From: Microbacterium maritypicum
Lineage (GTDB): Bacteria > Actinomycetota > Actinomycetes > Actinomycetales > Microbacteriaceae
Direction of reading: 5' to 3'
Assembly: GCF_008868125.1 (NCBI RefSeq)
Contig: NZ_WAAQ01000003.1
Coordinates: 124,001 to 188,000, forward strand
DNA length: 64,000 bases
Numbering within the stretch: the first letter of the stretch is position 1; each line of letters begins with the position of its first letter. The translations under genes and the position numbers were made by a program. The notes under the pieces are model-generated. The model was not told the DNA's origin. It made no database searches and worked only from the letters and a program-made list of their open reading frames with translations. Shown here one piece after another: positions 22,674 to 28,715 of this stretch.

Positions 22674-22901
22674 TCATTGACCGCTACTCACCGCCTTCTT
22701 GGCAGCCGCTACGCGCTCGGCATAGTGCGAGTCGAAGACCATCGGCAAAAGTGATTCGAGTTTGGCTTCCAGGTCCCACAGCACTCTCCGCTGTGCGGGA
22801 TCAGCGACAGCCGCTTCTGTCTCGTTTATTGCTCCGAGCCACTCGAATAGGACAAGCGCCTCTTCCTCGCTCAGAACCACGGTGACGTTGTTACCCACCA
22901 C
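22674..22901 (-). CDS. Putative immunity protein of the RHS/colicin D-like toxin
   Basis: 75 residues, acidic (about 12 Asp/Glu against 6 Lys/Arg), predicted all-helical, no signal. It starts with GTG 22901, overlapping the end of the toxin gene by 11 bases, with GGGAGG upstream in the toxin reading frame. Position immediately after a polymorphic toxin tip and the acidic character fit an immunity protein; the colicin D inhibitor is likewise small and acidic. The sequence is not obviously related to ImmD as I know it, so the assignment rests on context. Confidence 0.6.
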
Positions 22902-25299
22902 CCAACCTCCCAGTCGTCAGCAAGTTCTCGACTTGCGTTGAACTCAACTTCCACCCCGATAGGAAGTCATCTCCTTGGAGAATAACGTTGATGCCTGACT
23001 GCGGGTTGTAGTAGTGAGTCACGGAAGCACCGCGGTACTCCCCGGTGATGCTAATTGTGTTCGGTGATCGGACGTGCGCGACGATTGCAGATGCGAAGCT
23101 CTGCGCGTTGGTGGGGCTGTAGTTCCCAGCAACTCCAAAGTCATTCGCATGCTTGAACTTCTTTTGCGCCTGCACTGTTCTGACGGTCACCGACCGGTGG
23201 ACAGTCATCGGGTTCTGGGCTTGCACGTTCGCCCGTGGCGCGACGACCGGAGTCATCCGCCGCCATGTGTAGATCCCCATCGGTGTGGTGTACCCGCGCA
23301 TATTCGAAGGCATCCCCCGCGAAGTCACATAGTTGCCGCCCTGTGAACCGCCAGCCCAAGGGTTCCACCACTTCTTCCCGCTGAGGTCGTGTCCGTTGAT
23401 GGGCTCGGTGGGCCAGGCGTAGTCGTTCGCTCCGCCCCCTTCGATGGGGTCGACCTGCAGGAACCTCCCGAGGGCGGGGACATACAACCGCACCCCCATC
23501 TCCACCACCAACGCCGACCCTGCCGACTCCGCCGGCTTCAACGCCCCCTGATGCCACAGCGTGTTCCCTGCCACCTGACCCGTGTCATCCGACGCCACCG
23601 TCCCGACCGCGAATGACACAGGGTCCACGGGCTGACCGAACGGATCCCACAACAACAACGCACTCGCCGTGGTGCCGGTGCGGGTCACCAAGCCGTGTCC
23701 ACCCAAACCGGGGAACGACCACGTCACCACCCCGGCCTGGTTCGTCCACGACACCCCACCCGGCAACCCGACACTCCGGGTCAGCTCCGCACCCGACTTT
23801 TGACCCCACGCGGCATCACCACCCGCCGCATACAGATAGTTGGTGGTGGCCGCGGGGGCATCGCCGGTCGGGTCGATGGTGCGTGTGGCGATGCGTCCCG
23901 ACGCATCCCGCACGATCCGCACCGCCGTGCCATCGTCATACGTCGTCCCGACATGCCGGTTCGCGGCGTCGTACGAGAACTGCATATCGCCCAGGCGAAC
24001 CGTGTTCCCCCGCGCGTCATACACGATCTCCGACGCCGCCAGGCCATCGGCGACTGTCGTCGCACCCGGGATCGCTCCCGTCACCGATGACGACAACAAC
24101 CTGTCCGCCCAGTCATAGCAATACGACGTCGACGTGGTCACCGGAGCCTGCCCCGGAGCCGTCCACACATCCGTCAGACCCGTCCGGTTCCCCGACATCC
24201 CCGCCGCCGCATTCGGACCACACCCACCCGACGACCCGAACCCATACGTGAACTCATGCCCCGGAATCACCGCCGACACCAAACGCCCAGCCGTGTCATA
24301 CCCGTACGTCGACGAATACGACGTCGAGCCCATCGACGACTGCTGCTTCACCACACGACCCGACTGCGAACGCACCACAACATCCGACACGACCTGACCG
24401 CCGACCAGCCACTCCTGACCGACCACGCGCTCCGCCGCATCCCGACCCACACTGCTCAGCGCAGAACCATCCGGATACGTGATCTGCTTCAGCCGCTGCA
24501 GCGCGTCATACGTCACCGACGCGAGCTGCTGCCCATCGACCGCGACCGTCTTCACCTTGCCGTCCGCGTCATACGTGTACGCGGTCACCGACGCCGCACC
24601 ACCGGCCGGAGTCGTCGAGATCTGCGTCACCCGACCGGAAGCCGGATCGTACGTGGGCGTAGTCACCGTGCCCCACACGTCCGTGTAGCTCACGGTGCGG
24701 CCGAGCAGGTCGCTGACCGTCGTGATCGTCGAGTCGTTCGGCGAACCCGCGACCGACACCCCGCCGGTGACAGACGTGTACCCACCGCCCGTGACCCGGG
24801 TCGTCTCGGTCGTCGAGCTGGAGATCGTCGCGACCCCCGACCCTCCGAAAATCTTCGACGACACCACCTTGCCGCGGGCGTCGTAACCCGTGCACGACCA
24901 GTCCGTGTCGCCGGTCGACTTCGTCGCGACAGCACGGCCCCACGCGTCATACGCGTACTCGGTCGTGATGGCCCCGCCCGAAGCCGGAGTCGGCCCCGTG
25001 GTCGACTTCGCCATGCCGTACTACTTCGTCCCCGAGGGGATGCCACACACCGCCGGCGCGTTCTCGAGGTCGCCGTAGTAGGTGCTCGTGGTCTTCGCCG
25101 TCGCCGGAGCACCGGCCACACCACCGGCCGGGAGCGTTCGCGTCAGACGCCGCAACCACCCCGCCGCACCGGGCTGCTCGAACGTCGTCGACGTCGTCAG
25201 CGCGAGGCCATCCGGGTCGACTGTTCCGGCCGTCGCCTGACCCAGCCACGGGTGCTGGTACGTCGTCGTGGACGGGCGGTCAGAACTCGAACGTGATAC
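22891..25299 (-). pseudogene. 5'-truncated RHS-repeat gene with nonsense codon and colicin D-like toxin tip
   Basis: From ATG 25014 the frame gives 707 residues: RHS/YD repeats ([20 protein letters not shown]), the RHS core end [18 protein letters not shown]...DYAW, a junction, then a tip (residues ~618-707) with KFKH (His622), YRG, YNP and FLSGW (Ser686, Trp688). These match the K608-K610-H611 and S677-W679 set of colicin D, a nuclease cleaving tRNA-Arg anticodon loops. The same frame continues upstream of 25014 as recognisable RHS sequence (YQHPWLGQ, STYYGDLENAPAVCGIPSG) interrupted by TAG at 25021-25023, and stops at 25299, directly after the bioY stop. The secretion and N-terminal part is missing, so this looks like an orphan tail. 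Confidence 0.8.
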
Positions 25300-25890
25300 C
25301 TACACCGCCGCCACCGCGGCCTCCCGCACCCGCCGGTTGTCGGCGAAAGCACGAGGGTAGGCACGACGGAGCGCGACAACGACCAGCGTCGCTGCTGTCA
25401 CCTTGATCAGATCCCCCGGGAGGAACGCCAGGCTCGACAGAGCCGTCGGCCCGAGCGGCACTGCCGTCACGAGGGCCTGCACGGGGATGCCGAACGCGTA
25501 GACCACGAACACTCCGCCGATGAGCGCGGCGCCAGCGGAACGCCACCACGTGAAGCGCCCGGTGCGCATGAGGAGGCCGATCACCACGACACCGGCGATC
25601 CAGCCGAGGAGGTACCCGGCGCTGGGGCCGACGAACACGCCGAGCCCTCCGCGGCCACCCGCGAGCACCGGAAGCCCCACCGCGGCGAGCGCCAGCACGA
25701 GCACGACGGCGAGCGGTGCGAGGCGCGGTCCCAGCACGAGACCGGCGAGCATGACCCCCAGAGTCTGCGCGGTGATCGGCACGCCGCTGGGCAGGGGCAC
25801 GATCACGGTGCCGAGCACGACGATCAGTGCGGCGAAGACCGCGATGCGGCCGAGTGCGGCGCTGGTTTCGGTGGTGCGGGACGTGGTCAT
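25300..25890 (-). CDS. bioY: BioY, biotin ECF-transporter substrate-binding subunit
   Basis: 196 residues from ATG 25890, with AGGAGG six bases upstream. Six hydrophobic segments and BioY signatures: PLPSGVPITAQTLGVMLAGLVLGPRLA, GLGVFVGPSAGYLLGWI, and FLPGDLIKVTAATLV (the biotin-site block). It captures biotin in the membrane; BioM/BioN energy-coupling genes are not adjacent, and solitary BioY or a shared ECF module is possible. The upstream region carries a perfect 28-base palindrome shared with the divergent ligase gene, indicating biotin-responsive control. Its stop codon (25300-25302) is the exact point where RHS sequence begins in the same frame. Confidence 0.92.
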   Translation of the reverse strand: MTTSRTTETSAALGRIAVFAALIVVLGTVIVPLPSGVPITAQTLGVMLAGLVLGPRLAPLAVVLVLALAAVGLPVLAGGRGGLGVFVGPSAGYLLGWIAGVVVIGLLMRTGRFTWWRSAGAALIGGVFVVYAFGIPVQALVTAVPLGPTALSSLAFLPGDLIKVTAATLVVVALRRAYPRAFADNRRVREAAVAAV

Positions 25891-25899
25891 GTTTCCTCC

Positions 25900-25927
25900 T
25901 GAACACCGTTCACCTGAACGGTGTTCA
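25900..25927. promoter_or_regulatory. BioQ-like tandem operator between bioY and the ligase-ketosynthase operon
   Basis: TGAACACCGTTCA (25900-25912), CC, TGAACGGTGTTCA (25915-25927): a perfect 28-base palindrome, each half itself being TGAAC-N3-GTTCA. The BioQ (TetR-family) box known from corynebacteria is TGAAC-N3-GTTAC, so this is a near match in duplicate. It sits 10 bases before the bioY start and 12 bases before the ligase start, so one regulator would shut both directions. TAGAAT (25929-25934) next to it could be the -10 box of the ligase gene. Confidence 0.7.
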
Positions 25928-25938
25928 TTAGAATAGGG

Positions 25939-27474
25939 ATGCCCTCGTCCCCACGCAAACCCGCCCCAGGAGTCCTCACGTCCCTCTCCCCGATGCTGCG
26001 TCGCATCGCCACCGAAGACCCCGACCGGCCGGCGATCGTCGGCCGCGACGCCCGCATGACCTATGGCGAGCTCCACGCCGATTCGCGCCGTACCTCCACG
26101 GCCCTGGCGCACGCCCTCGCGGATGCCTGCGCGACGGCGACTTCAGGAGCTCACCCACCGCTGCCGCCGGTCATCGCCATCTGCCTGTCCACCGCGTTCG
26201 ACACCGCGCGCGCCGTCGTCGCGGTGGAGGCGGGCGCGCGCATCCTCACCGTCGTCGACGCGCACTGGCCCGTCGCACTCCAGATGCAGCTGATCGTCAC
26301 GACCGGAGCGGCCGCCGTCATCACGGATGTTCCGACGATCCGGGCCGCTCTGCATTCGGCCGGATGGTCGGGACTCGTCGTCGGACTCGACGATCTCGCA
26401 CGAACCCCCTCCCTCGCCTCGACCCACGCAGAAGCATCGGCCGACGATGCGCCGTTCCTGATGCTCACCTCTTCGGGGACGACGGGCCCACCGAAGGCCT
26501 TCCTCAAGACGCGCAGGCAGTACGCGGCGAACATCGACGTCTCCCGCGACCACCTGGGCGCGCAAGACGGGGTGGCGACCTTCGCCCCGGGCCCGATGTC
26601 GTACAGCCTGACCCTGTACACGCTGTTCGAGGTGCTCGCCACAGGCGGTCGGATGCACGTCGCGGACCGCCTCGACGAGCTCTGGCTCAGCTCGCGGGTG
26701 CACGACGAGCGCATCACACGCCTGGTCGCGGTTCCTGCGGCGGTGACGGCTCTCACCGACGCGGCGCGGCGCCACCCGGCGCGGTACGACGGCATCGATC
26801 TGATCGTCACCGGGGGTGCGGGGTTCCCGGCATCGGCGCGAGCGGCCGTCGCCGAAGCCCTCCCCCATACCCGGACGATCAGCTACTTCGGCACCGGCGA
26901 ACTCGGCTTCATCGGTGACGACCGCGCCGGCCACGACAGCATCCGGCTCTACCCGCAGGTGGAGGCGCGGGTGCGCGGCGACGACGGCAGTGAGCTGGCA
27001 CCGGGCGAGCTCGGCAGCCTCTGGGTGCGCTCCCCCTCATGCTCGGCCGCCTACCTGGCGGGCACGACCTCGACGCCGTTGACAGACGGCGACGGCTGGG
27101 CGAGCGTGCACGATCAGGGGCGGCTGCGCGGCCGGGACTTCACGTTCGTCGGCAGAGCAGGAGACGTCGTCACCACCGGCGGGCACACCGTCGCGCTCGA
27201 CGAGGTGGAGCGCGCCTTCGACGGCATGCCGGGCCTCAGCGCGTGGTGCGCCATCGCCGAGAGCGACGATCGCCTGGGTCTGCGGATCGCGCTGGTGACC
27301 GAGGGCGATGCACCGCCGGCCGCAGAGCTGCGCCGATGGGCGCGCGAGCGTCTCGCTCCGGCCGCCCGGCCCCGTCGCTGGCACACGGTGACGGAGCTCC
27401 CCCGGACAGCGGGTGGGAAGATCCGCCGCGCCGCGGTCGCGGATCTCGTGGCAGTCGGGCGGGGACGATCGTGA
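25939..27474 (+). CDS. AMP-forming acyl-CoA/acyl-acid ligase, biotin-regulon candidate
   Basis: 511 residues from ATG 25939; GTG 25921 lies inside the operator and is unlikely. ANL-superfamily motifs: LTSSGTTGPPKAFLK (P-loop), YFGTGELGF in place of the usual YGxTE, a DxGRL-type hinge (HDQGRLRGRDFTFVGRAGD) and the C-terminal catalytic Lys in TAGGKIRRAA. It should activate a carboxylic acid with ATP for transfer to CoA or a carrier. No adenylation-NRPS features. It overlaps the ketosynthase (GTGA) and shares the operator with bioY. The arrangement recalls the BirA-regulated bioY-ligase-thiolase (yhfU-yhfT-yhfS) genes of Bacillus. Substrate unknown; a pimelate-like acid is inference. Confidence 0.85.
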   Translation: MPSSPRKPAPGVLTSLSPMLRRIATEDPDRPAIVGRDARMTYGELHADSRRTSTALAHALADACATATSGAHPPLPPVIAICLSTAFDTARAVVAVEAGARILTVVDAHWPVALQMQLIVTTGAAAVITDVPTIRAALHSAGWSGLVVGLDDLARTPSLASTHAEASADDAPFLMLTSSGTTGPPKAFLKTRRQYAANIDVSRDHLGAQDGVATFAPGPMSYSLTLYTLFEVLATGGRMHVADRLDELWLSSRVHDERITRLVAVPAAVTALTDAARRHPARYDGIDLIVTGGAGFPASARAAVAEALPHTRTISYFGTGELGFIGDDRAGHDSIRLYPQVEARVRGDDGSELAPGELGSLWVRSPSCSAAYLAGTTSTPLTDGDGWASVHDQGRLRGRDFTFVGRAGDVVTTGGHTVALDEVERAFDGMPGLSAWCAIAESDDRLGLRIALVTEGDAPPAAELRRWARERLAPAARPRRWHTVTELPRTAGGKIRRAAVADLVAVGRGRS

Positions 27475-28715
27475 GCGCCGGGCGCTCCGTGGTCGTCACC
27501 GGCGTCGGAGCGGTCACCCCCAGCGGCCTCACGGCACCGGAACTGTGGACGTCTGTGCGCGCGGGACGCAGCGGCATCACGCGGATCCCCCGGGAGATCG
27601 CCGGGTCAGGGCCGGTGCAGGTCGGCGGAGTGGTGCGTGGATTCACCGGCGCCTCCGACGTGTCGGCATCTCTCGCGCGTCGCCTCACGCCGATGCAGCA
27701 GTGGGCGATCGCCGCGGCCGATGAAGCACTCGCCGATGCGGACCTGGGCGCGCCATCGGGGATCGCGGACGTCGCGCAGGTGATCATCGCGACAGGGTCG
27801 GGCCCGGTGGATGCGACGGTGCAGGCGGCAGGCGCGCTGCGAGATCGCGGACCCCGCCGGGTACCGCCAGGGCTCACCGTCTACGGAACCGCGGACGCGA
27901 TCGCGACAGTGCTCAGCAGACGATACGGATTCCTCGGCCAGACCCACGCGATCGCCGCGGCGTGCGCGAGTGGCGCGGTCGCGATCGGAGAAGGTCTCCG
28001 GAGGATCCGTCACGGCTACGCCGACGCAGTGCTGGTCGTCGGGATGGAGGATTGCCTCGGCCCGCTGCACCTGGCGTCGCACACCAACCTCCGCTCGCTC
28101 GCCACGGGCTTCGGCGACGACCCCTCGGCGGCCTCGCGCCCTTTCGACCGCGCACGTACGGGCTTCGTGATGGCACAGGGCGCATCCGCCGTGCTGCTGG
28201 AGGCCGCGGACCTCGCACGGGAGCGCGGCGCTCGACCCCTCGCGACCATCGCCGGGTTCGGTGCGACCAGCGACGCGCATCACGCCACGGCACCGGACCC
28301 GGACGCCGCCGGGGCGACCAGGGCGATCGATGCATGCCTCGCCGACGCCGACATCCGCGCCGCGCAGATCGACCATGTGAACACCCACGGCACGGGCACG
28401 GTTCTCGGCGACGAAGCCGAGCTCGTCGCGCTCGCACAGGCGCTGGGATCGGGAGCGCCATCCGTTCCACTCACCGCGACGAAGTCGACCACCGGGCATC
28501 TGCTCGGCGCAGCGGGCGTCACCGAAGCCGTCATCGCCGCGATGACTCTTCGCGATCAGGTGCTGCCTCCGACCATCAACCTGTCGCATCCGTGCGCGGA
28601 CGGGTGGGATTTCGTCCGCGACCGGGAGCGACCGCATCCGGTCCGCACGGTGCTGTCGACCTCGTTCGGATTCGGAGGTCACAACGCGGCGCTGCTGCTC
28701 ACGGCGTGCGAGTGA
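27471..28715 (+). CDS. Beta-ketoacyl synthase, FabF-like (condensing enzyme of the biotin-linked operon)
   Basis: 414 residues from GTG 27471, overlapping the ligase stop by four bases. The Cys-His-His triad is complete: AACASGAV (Cys165), NTHGTGT (His306), TKSTTGHLLGAAG (Lys338, His343), and the C-terminal GFGGHNAA. This is the elongating KAS I/II fold, so it should condense an acyl-thioester with malonyl-ACP. There is no acyl-carrier-protein or ketoreductase gene beside it, so it is not part of a full fatty-acid or polyketide cluster here. Translational coupling to the ligase and the shared BioQ-like operator suggest a role in supplying a biotin precursor or another biotin-dependent acyl chain. 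Confidence 0.87.
   Translation: MSAGRSVVVTGVGAVTPSGLTAPELWTSVRAGRSGITRIPREIAGSGPVQVGGVVRGFTGASDVSASLARRLTPMQQWAIAAADEALADADLGAPSGIADVAQVIIATGSGPVDATVQAAGALRDRGPRRVPPGLTVYGTADAIATVLSRRYGFLGQTHAIAAACASGAVAIGEGLRRIRHGYADAVLVVGMEDCLGPLHLASHTNLRSLATGFGDDPSAASRPFDRARTGFVMAQGASAVLLEAADLARERGARPLATIAGFGATSDAHHATAPDPDAAGATRAIDACLADADIRAAQIDHVNTHGTGTVLGDEAELVALAQALGSGAPSVPLTATKSTTGHLLGAAGVTEAVIAAMTLRDQVLPPTINLSHPCADGWDFVRDRERPHPVRTVLSTSFGFGGHNAALLLTACE

Follow-up and report, generated by a model that had tools for sequence, protein, structure and literature searches.

Why should the gene of a biotin importer share its regulatory site with an acid ligase and a ketosynthase in a bacterium in which the bioF/bioD/bioB set for making biotin was not found? 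This question is raised by a stretch of Microbacterium maritypicum DNA (assembly GCF_008868125.1, contig NZ_WAAQ01000003.1, positions 124,001 to 188,000 of the forward strand; 64,000 nucleotides, called the window below), where bioY diverges from an operon of an adenosine monophosphate (AMP)-forming ligase and a FabF-like ketosynthase (KS). Judging from the operator sequences, bioY and the ligase–KS pair are very probably both under the control of a BioQ-type repressor. As to the function of the pair, we tentatively favour the re-extension of imported biotin whose side chain has been shortened. The features concerned are the following (positions are those of the window).

25300-25890, minus strand: bioY, the S component of an energy-coupling factor biotin transporter (Pfam PF02632/BioY, 117 bits against a cutoff of 25)
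25900-25927, no strand: tandem BioQ-type operator TGAACACCGTTCA-CC-TGAACGGTGTTCA (read from the sequence)
25929-25934, plus strand: candidate -10 box TAGAAT abutting the operator, a putative ligase promoter (read from the sequence and inferred)
25939-27474, start uncertain, plus strand: AMP-forming acid ligase of the ANL superfamily (Pfam AMP-binding 103 bits, AMP-binding_C 34 bits)
27471-28715, GTG start, plus strand: FabF-like KS (Pfam ketoacyl-synt N- and C-terminal domains, 125 and 119 bits)

This layout confirms the initial annotation, which had described bioY as divergent from a ligase and a FabF-like KS with a C-H-H triad, the KS start overlapping the ligase end via GTGA. BioY possesses the PGDLIK motif and was aligned to the BioY structure 4dve in the sequence comparison. 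The operator had been presented as a perfect 28-base palindrome of two TGAAC-N3-GTTCA units: both units are exact and separated by a CC spacer, while the symmetry extends to 26 of the 28 bases. The corynebacterial BioQ site had been given as TGAAC-N3-GTTAC and needs correction, since the predicted site in PMC3398298 is TGAAC-N3-GTTCA, the same as the window motif.

Exact copies of this motif occupy four places in the 3.67 Mb genome and form just two tandem operators. The second of these separates the gene for a BioM-like ATP-binding cassette ATPase, which has a CbiQ-type BioN gene downstream of it, from a BioQ-like TetR gene; the only genes with exact sites ahead of them are bioY, the bioMN-like genes, bioQ and the ligase–KS pair. 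Under a first-order Markov model with the composition of the window, 0.9 single and 2e-7 tandem sites are expected per genome. When one mismatch is allowed, single sites are found at 29 places (25 of them mismatched) versus 7 for the reversed pattern, which yielded no tandem site among the genome rows. The TetR gene (L012:9167-9748; TetR_N, 46.7 bits) has the operator immediately upstream, and its product matches best the solved structures 5xs9, 5yej and 5yek, which we take to be M. smegmatis BioQ, at about 100 bits versus at most 69 for tetracycline repressors. It is because the sole other tandem site belongs to this bioMN-like/BioQ-like TetR locus that we regard the pair as very probably part of a BioQ regulon. 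The shared and probably biotin-responsive control proposed at the outset is thereby upheld as a prediction from sequence.

In the BioQ-like gene itself, a TATAAT box stands 6 bases ahead of the ATG and right behind the tandem operator (L012:9126-9169), on account of which its mRNA is probably leaderless and autoregulated.

Tandem sites with at most one mismatch are present in 152 of the 295 sampled genomes of the genus. Among 30 that were fetched, bioY adjoins 29 and a BioQ-like gene 27, and the sole site lacking bioY adjoins a ligase–thiolase pair. In L164, L165, L168, L169 and L171, bioY keeps the tandem site with no ligase adjoining, and in genome G152, which has BioB, such a site lies directly ahead of bioY-bioB (L247:4365-6050), bioQ and bioMN being placed at a second tandem site elsewhere (L167). 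The operator at the ligase is not there merely for bioY, since three loci (L033, L034 and L241) retain it though no bioY adjoins.

Both enzymes of the pair look active because their catalytic residues are intact: the P-loop, DQG and PRTAGGK motifs are present in the ligase, and C165, H306, K338 and H343 give the KS a complete C-H-H plus Lys set. The best NCBIfam match of the ligase is PRK07638, with 155 bits versus a cutoff of 518 (passed by one of 14 control genomes), and the protein falls under the cutoff of every one of the 25 NCBIfam families shown. Its nearest solved relatives act on aryl acids, which does not set its specificity. The KS scores 385.8 bits against TIGR03150 fabF, under the cutoff of 493.75, and is thus separated from the housekeeping FabF; its NCBIfam and Pfam matches are FabF-type and ketoacyl-synt, as distinct from the β-ketoacyl synthase (KAS) III type represented by BioZ, and its residues are those of a FabF-type decarboxylating condensing enzyme. 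This type fits condensation rather than thiolysis, and, as far as the residues tell, we consider it fairly probable that the KS carries out a two-carbon extension.

Translation of the ligase may begin in an unusual way. The GTG at 25921 that opens the reading frame in the list of open reading frames (ORFs) lies inside the operator, the ATG at 25939 is not conserved, and no AUG or GUG start is shared by the aligned operator-type sequences, that is, those with the operator at the ligase. Initiation at ACG or another unusual start is suggested by an in-frame AGGAG-N5-ACG at 25968-25980 (AGGAG at 25968-25972, ACG at 25978), which is common to seven of the nine aligned sequences, the window included. 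In genome G004, no standard start codon occurs in the frame until well within the conserved domain. Among the aligned relatives adjacent to bioY, the candidate -10 box reads TAGAAT, TAGAGT, TACAAT or TACAGT.

How far the association of the pair with biotin extends was seen when GTDB contigs were scanned with the ligase alignment, which gave 79 loci from Microbacterium, Brevibacterium, Leucobacter and other Actinomycetota. Of these, 76 include a KS, the remaining three contigs ending too early. The exact operator is located just upstream of the ligase in seven loci, none of which has a third gene. The other 72 have no exact operator at the ligase (in L072, a site with one mismatch lies close to the start of the ligase), and in 68 of these a third gene of acyl-CoA-dehydrogenase fold follows, the other four being cut by contig ends. 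Within the genus, the operator occurs in nine of the 29 ligase-bearing genomes, the window genome included; in G159, with a ligase 51 % identical, the operator is present and the third gene was not found. A direct search for this flavoenzyme gene in 16 operator-type sequences, some representing the same genome twice, gave none, L184 and L187 being too short downstream. In the ligase plus KS tree (76 rows), the nine operator-type pairs comprise one clade with a split support of 1.0.

This distribution is most simply read as the acquisition of BioQ control and the loss of the third gene in a single lineage, a direction that we infer. The ligase–KS–flavoenzyme operons of Brevibacterium, Leucobacter and other Microbacterium have orthologous enzymes (ligases 43-51 %, KSs 50-64 % identical) and differ from the window operon in carrying the third gene and in having no exact BioQ operator at the ligase. 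Conservation of the operator upstream of orthologues, from which the initial annotation was to be judged, therefore holds for the closest relatives and fails for the others; likewise, the linkage of the ligase and KS to bioY's regulon is seen in the operator clade, and elsewhere the pair forms an operon with the acyl-CoA-dehydrogenase-fold enzyme. Since the 72 loci lack the operator and 68 of them belong to the flavoenzyme operon, linkage to biotin is a feature of a single clade.

The third-gene protein (L016:6454-7623 and relatives) is nearest, among others, to 3m9v (an FAD-dependent oxidoreductase, presumably KijD3), to nitrososynthase and to DszC entries, which suggests a hydroxylating step in a pathway of Brevibacterium and relatives. 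From its first residues, the third gene of L016 and L017 had been considered as bioF; the scan revealed the acyl-CoA-dehydrogenase-fold protein instead. A MetQ-like lipoprotein and a MetI-like permease, as judged by eye, are encoded 1-2 kb upstream of the ligase, KS and flavoenzyme genes and on their strand in 7-8 of the 79 loci (L038:6353-7024, L058:6912-7745), hinting that the flavoenzyme-type operon handles an imported, perhaps sulfur-containing compound.

A site in the KS alignment with FabF structures deserves mention here. It is occupied by Phe in two aligned FabF structures and by His in six, Asn in two and Gly in one of the nine operator-type KSs, and such non-Phe residues are compatible with a less plain acyl chain.

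To judge by its gene content, the host is probably unable to make biotin. The best BioB match in its genome reaches 40.5 bits versus a cutoff of 225, BioD has no match, and the de novo bioF/bioD/bioB set was thus not found; bioA and the early pimelate genes (bioC/H/I/W) were not searched. A BioF-like gene scores 383 bits versus the BioF cutoff of 426, passes that of glycine C-acetyltransferase and lies beside the threonine dehydrogenase gene; as a candidate bioF it was rejected, being kbl beside tdh. The BioF cutoff alone is not decisive, because the likely true BioF of G063, encoded beside bioD, scores 366. In the genus, BioB exceeds its cutoff in six of the 295 genomes (6 of the 272 most complete) and in none of the 29 with the window-type ligase.

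The same regulon also contains a sister module. At some tandem sites of the genus, the operator is followed by bioY, a different, short ligase (about 365 residues), a thiolase-like gene, bioM and bioN, while bioQ points the other way. The short-ligase profile matches 31 of the 295 genus genomes. Among 30 of the genus loci, the thiolase-like gene adjoins in all 30, the exact operator is present in 27, bioY in 25 and bioY together with bioM in 24; the operator persists in three of the five loci that lack bioY. Both ligase types together occur in none of the 295 genomes (29 and 31 carriers; about 3 expected by independence, kinship being ignored), a weak indication that the two modules are mutually exclusive.

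Across the order, the short ligase is found in 54 of 396 genomes and in 26 of 109 genera. The best 30 of the 54 order loci have the thiolase-like gene in 30, bioY in 27 and bioM in 25 (24 at a stricter cut). Only 13 of these 30 have the exact operator and 17 have none, which means that the operon can occur with no BioQ site. The gene order recurs in twenty wider regions picked for spread, ten of which come from the 24 genomes with lower scores, apart from five exceptions: no thiolase was found in L292 and L301, the latter also lacking adjoining bioM and bioN; L290 and L291 have no bioY, bioM or bioN; and the contig of L298 is cut at the ligase. The bioY-ligase-thiolase-bioM-bioN operon (L252-L301) is widespread in Actinomycetales. 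In one of its representatives (L294:6395-7006), a gene for a small S-adenosylmethionine-dependent methyltransferase (204 residues) is inserted between ligase and thiolase. Near a distant ligase match in G063, where a ligase and a thiolase occur, there was no bioY match of weight.

These adjacencies of bioY, bioM and the operator tie the short ligase and its thiolase-like partner to import by BioYMN. The sister operon resembles the window pair in belonging to the same regulon in Microbacterium, in pairing the same types of enzyme and in that BioB was not found in most of its genus hosts; it differs in its short ligase and in a thiolase-like protein with changed motifs, and is not orthologous to the window pair. 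The suggestion that a ligase and a thiolase-superfamily enzyme recur with bioY is thus borne out and broadened, with two different modules in one genus, one of which extends across the order.

Canonical thiolases use a catalytic set C-N-H-C, which the thiolase-like partner does not possess. Its nucleophilic Cys is kept in 60 of 60 sequences and the GHP His in all 58 that are readable. The position of the second Cys, readable in 52, is occupied by Ser in 39 and Ala in 13; five of these sequences (L264, L275-L278) carry a Cys at the preceding residue. The NEAF motif has its Asn replaced in 55 of 58 (Val 52, other residues 3, Asn 3). When the 8000 candidates sharing most words with one member were scored and the best 120 listed, C, V, H and A were found in 120 of 120 among these matches. 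Given the thiolase mechanism, an enzyme without such residues is expected to be poor at deprotonating acetyl-CoA; the partner may use malonyl-CoA, or may only transfer acyl groups.

What, then, could the window pair do? In the mechanism that we favour, the BioQ-like TetR repressor encoded beside the bioMN-like genes would bind the operator, and scarcity of biotin would derepress bioY, the ligase–KS pair and bioMN together, as the identity of the operators implies. An acid imported via BioYMN would be activated to an acyl thioester by the ligase and lengthened by the KS with two carbons from malonyl-acyl carrier protein (malonyl-ACP), steps proposed from the protein families and the intact residues. 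Bisnorbiotin, a biotin breakdown product with a shortened side chain, would in this way be re-extended by two carbons to biotin; the housekeeping fatty-acid reductases would complete the cycle, and the product would pass to a thioesterase or to biotin protein ligase. The acid is thought to be an imported compound because, in the sister operon, both enzyme genes mostly lie between those for the S and A components of the importer, and the product is most likely biotin itself because the genes for biotin synthesis were not found. A 4HBT thioesterase ORF, located in L300 on the opposite strand between thiolase and bioM, is counted in favour of this mechanism. Nevertheless, shortened biotin is a possible rather than a probable substrate, and the whole chain from BioQ derepression via acid activation to re-extension is proposed with the same reserve.

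Several observations weigh against re-extension. The window operon contains no reductase or release gene, and no paper on the re-extension of bisnorbiotin was found in the open-licence literature. The KS would need malonyl-ACP, and hence a biotinylated acetyl-CoA carboxylase, just when biotin is scarce, so the flux would have to be small; this objection is eased by the tiny amount required. The ligase–KS–flavoenzyme operons have no visible tie to biotin, and the site that is Phe in FabF structures is Asn in 67 of 67 flavoenzyme-type KSs, which means that a polar pocket residue is not special to the biotin-linked clade. Since the thiolase-like partner has lost the second Cys from its usual place and in most cases the Asn, it may make no carbon–carbon bonds, and the two modules may differ in reaction. 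BioB is over its cutoff in three of the 31 genomes with the sister ligase (G034, G239 and G309), half of the six BioB genomes, which does not fit an auxotroph-only role. Finally, auxotrophy is not securely deduced from the absence of genes, because Microbacterium Leaf203 has no BioD and yet grew in biotin-depleted medium, a matter left open by the authors (PMC13392072).

Among the competing explanations, lipid rescue, although rather unlikely, survives best. The pair would convert fatty or branched acids that have been scavenged to acyl-ACP and elongate them, sparing malonyl-CoA when acetyl-CoA carboxylase fails. The names of the ligase family include fatty acyl-CoA synthetases, the KS is FabF-like, and published sources record a raised membrane fluidity in a biotin-limited S. 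aureus bioA mutant (PMC12642757) and describe YhfT and YhfS as putative fatty-acid-type enzymes (PMC6391492). However, a KS that depends on malonyl units is ill suited to conditions in which malonyl-CoA runs short, and the same scarcity of malonyl-ACP that the favoured mechanism could tolerate weighs against a bulk role in lipids. The failure of the ligase to reach the cutoff of any of the 25 families shown counts against fatty acids, as do, without setting its specificity, the aryl acids of its nearest solved relatives, and the position of the sister genes, mostly between bioY and bioM, points to an imported compound.

The changed residues of the thiolase-like partner, with Cys and the GHP His kept, the second Cys lost from its usual place and the NEAF Asn mostly so, together with the uniform C, V, H, A of the 120 listed homologues, would be in keeping with acyl transfer in place of carbon–carbon bond formation. 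The ligase would then activate an acid, perhaps biotin, and the partner would pass the acyl group from its Cys to an acceptor or hydrolyse it, so that the vitamin is trapped or delivered. This reading is improbable: the C-H-H plus Lys set of the window KS is complete, no acceptor is apparent, and for biotin itself import and an ordinary biotin protein ligase (which was not searched for) should be enough.

We give an equally low standing to the idea that the pair still makes the metabolite of the ligase–KS–flavoenzyme operon, for example a signal or an antibiotic, and is simply switched on by biotin starvation. The tree is in keeping with it, the operator-type clade (9 of 76 rows) standing beside the large clade of the flavoenzyme operon. 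Yet the flavoenzyme was not found in the operator-type loci (16 sequences, two too short downstream), the residues differ between the clades in both enzymes, which suggests a changed reaction, and the parallel ligase–thiolase module under the same operator favours a role linked to biotin.

The pimeloyl-type precursor for de novo biotin synthesis, which the initial annotation had put forward, is very improbable and, barring another ring-forming route, excluded for this genome: a KAS III-type condensing enzyme, BioZ, does serve biotin synthesis according to PMC8024396, and the sister module occurs in three of the six BioB-bearing genus genomes, but neither BioB nor BioD was found in the host, its BioF-like protein is Kbl, BioB is under the cutoff in 29 of 29 genus genomes with the window ligase and 28 of 31 with the sister ligase, and any reading as precursor synthesis is weakened by the presence of such pairs in a genus of which 289 of the 295 sampled members show no BioB match that exceeds the cutoff.

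It is useful to compare the pair with known systems. BioZ extends a glutaryl unit. It resembles the window KS as a condensing enzyme used for biotin and differs from it in being of KAS III type and in starting biotin synthesis (PMC8024396), while the window KS is FabF-type and its host was not found to have bioF/D/B. The corynebacterial and mycobacterial BioQ regulon shares the TetR-type regulator and the TGAAC-N3-GTTCA operator; there, the predicted sites described in PMC3398298 are upstream of bio genes, whereas here the exact sites are confined to the four targets named above. In B. subtilis and S. aureus, yhfT-yhfS belong with bioY to the biotin-repressed BirA regulon and encode a putative acetyl-CoA acetyltransferase and a putative fatty acid-CoA ligase, as stated in PMC6391492, PMC7235819 and PMC11089781. 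An AMP ligase and a thiolase-superfamily enzyme are thus co-regulated with bioY there and probably here, and the window pair is similar to yhfT-yhfS in its list of parts and is not a member of that system: the operator is BioQ-type, the condensing enzyme is FabF-like and not a thiolase, the ligase falls far from the PRK07638 cutoff, and the biotin synthesis genes of the host were not found.

One can speculate that Actinomycetales that do not synthesise biotin, when starved of it, repair a breakdown product with a shortened side chain through two-carbon extension in the manner of fatty acids, that the FabF-type KS of the window and the thiolase-like enzyme of the sister operon, which has no usual base, represent two independent solutions, and that YhfT/YhfS of Bacillus and Staphylococcus would be a third instance; we regard so general a scheme as doubtful. 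For the bioY-ligase-thiolase-bioMN operon, no paper was found in the open-licence literature, the search not including ketosynthase terms. The function of the pair becomes testable with a few biotin vitamers, and if repair is true, it would represent a new route of vitamin salvage, with a bearing on biotin-dependent bacteria that live on partly degraded vitamin.

Next to bioY in the window, an ORF of 707 residues (22891-25014) is 87-88 % identical, over the matched part, to an ORF of 2293 residues at the same place in G039 (L013:1509-8390). By eye it has the look of an RHS-type repeat protein, shorter than its G039 counterpart.

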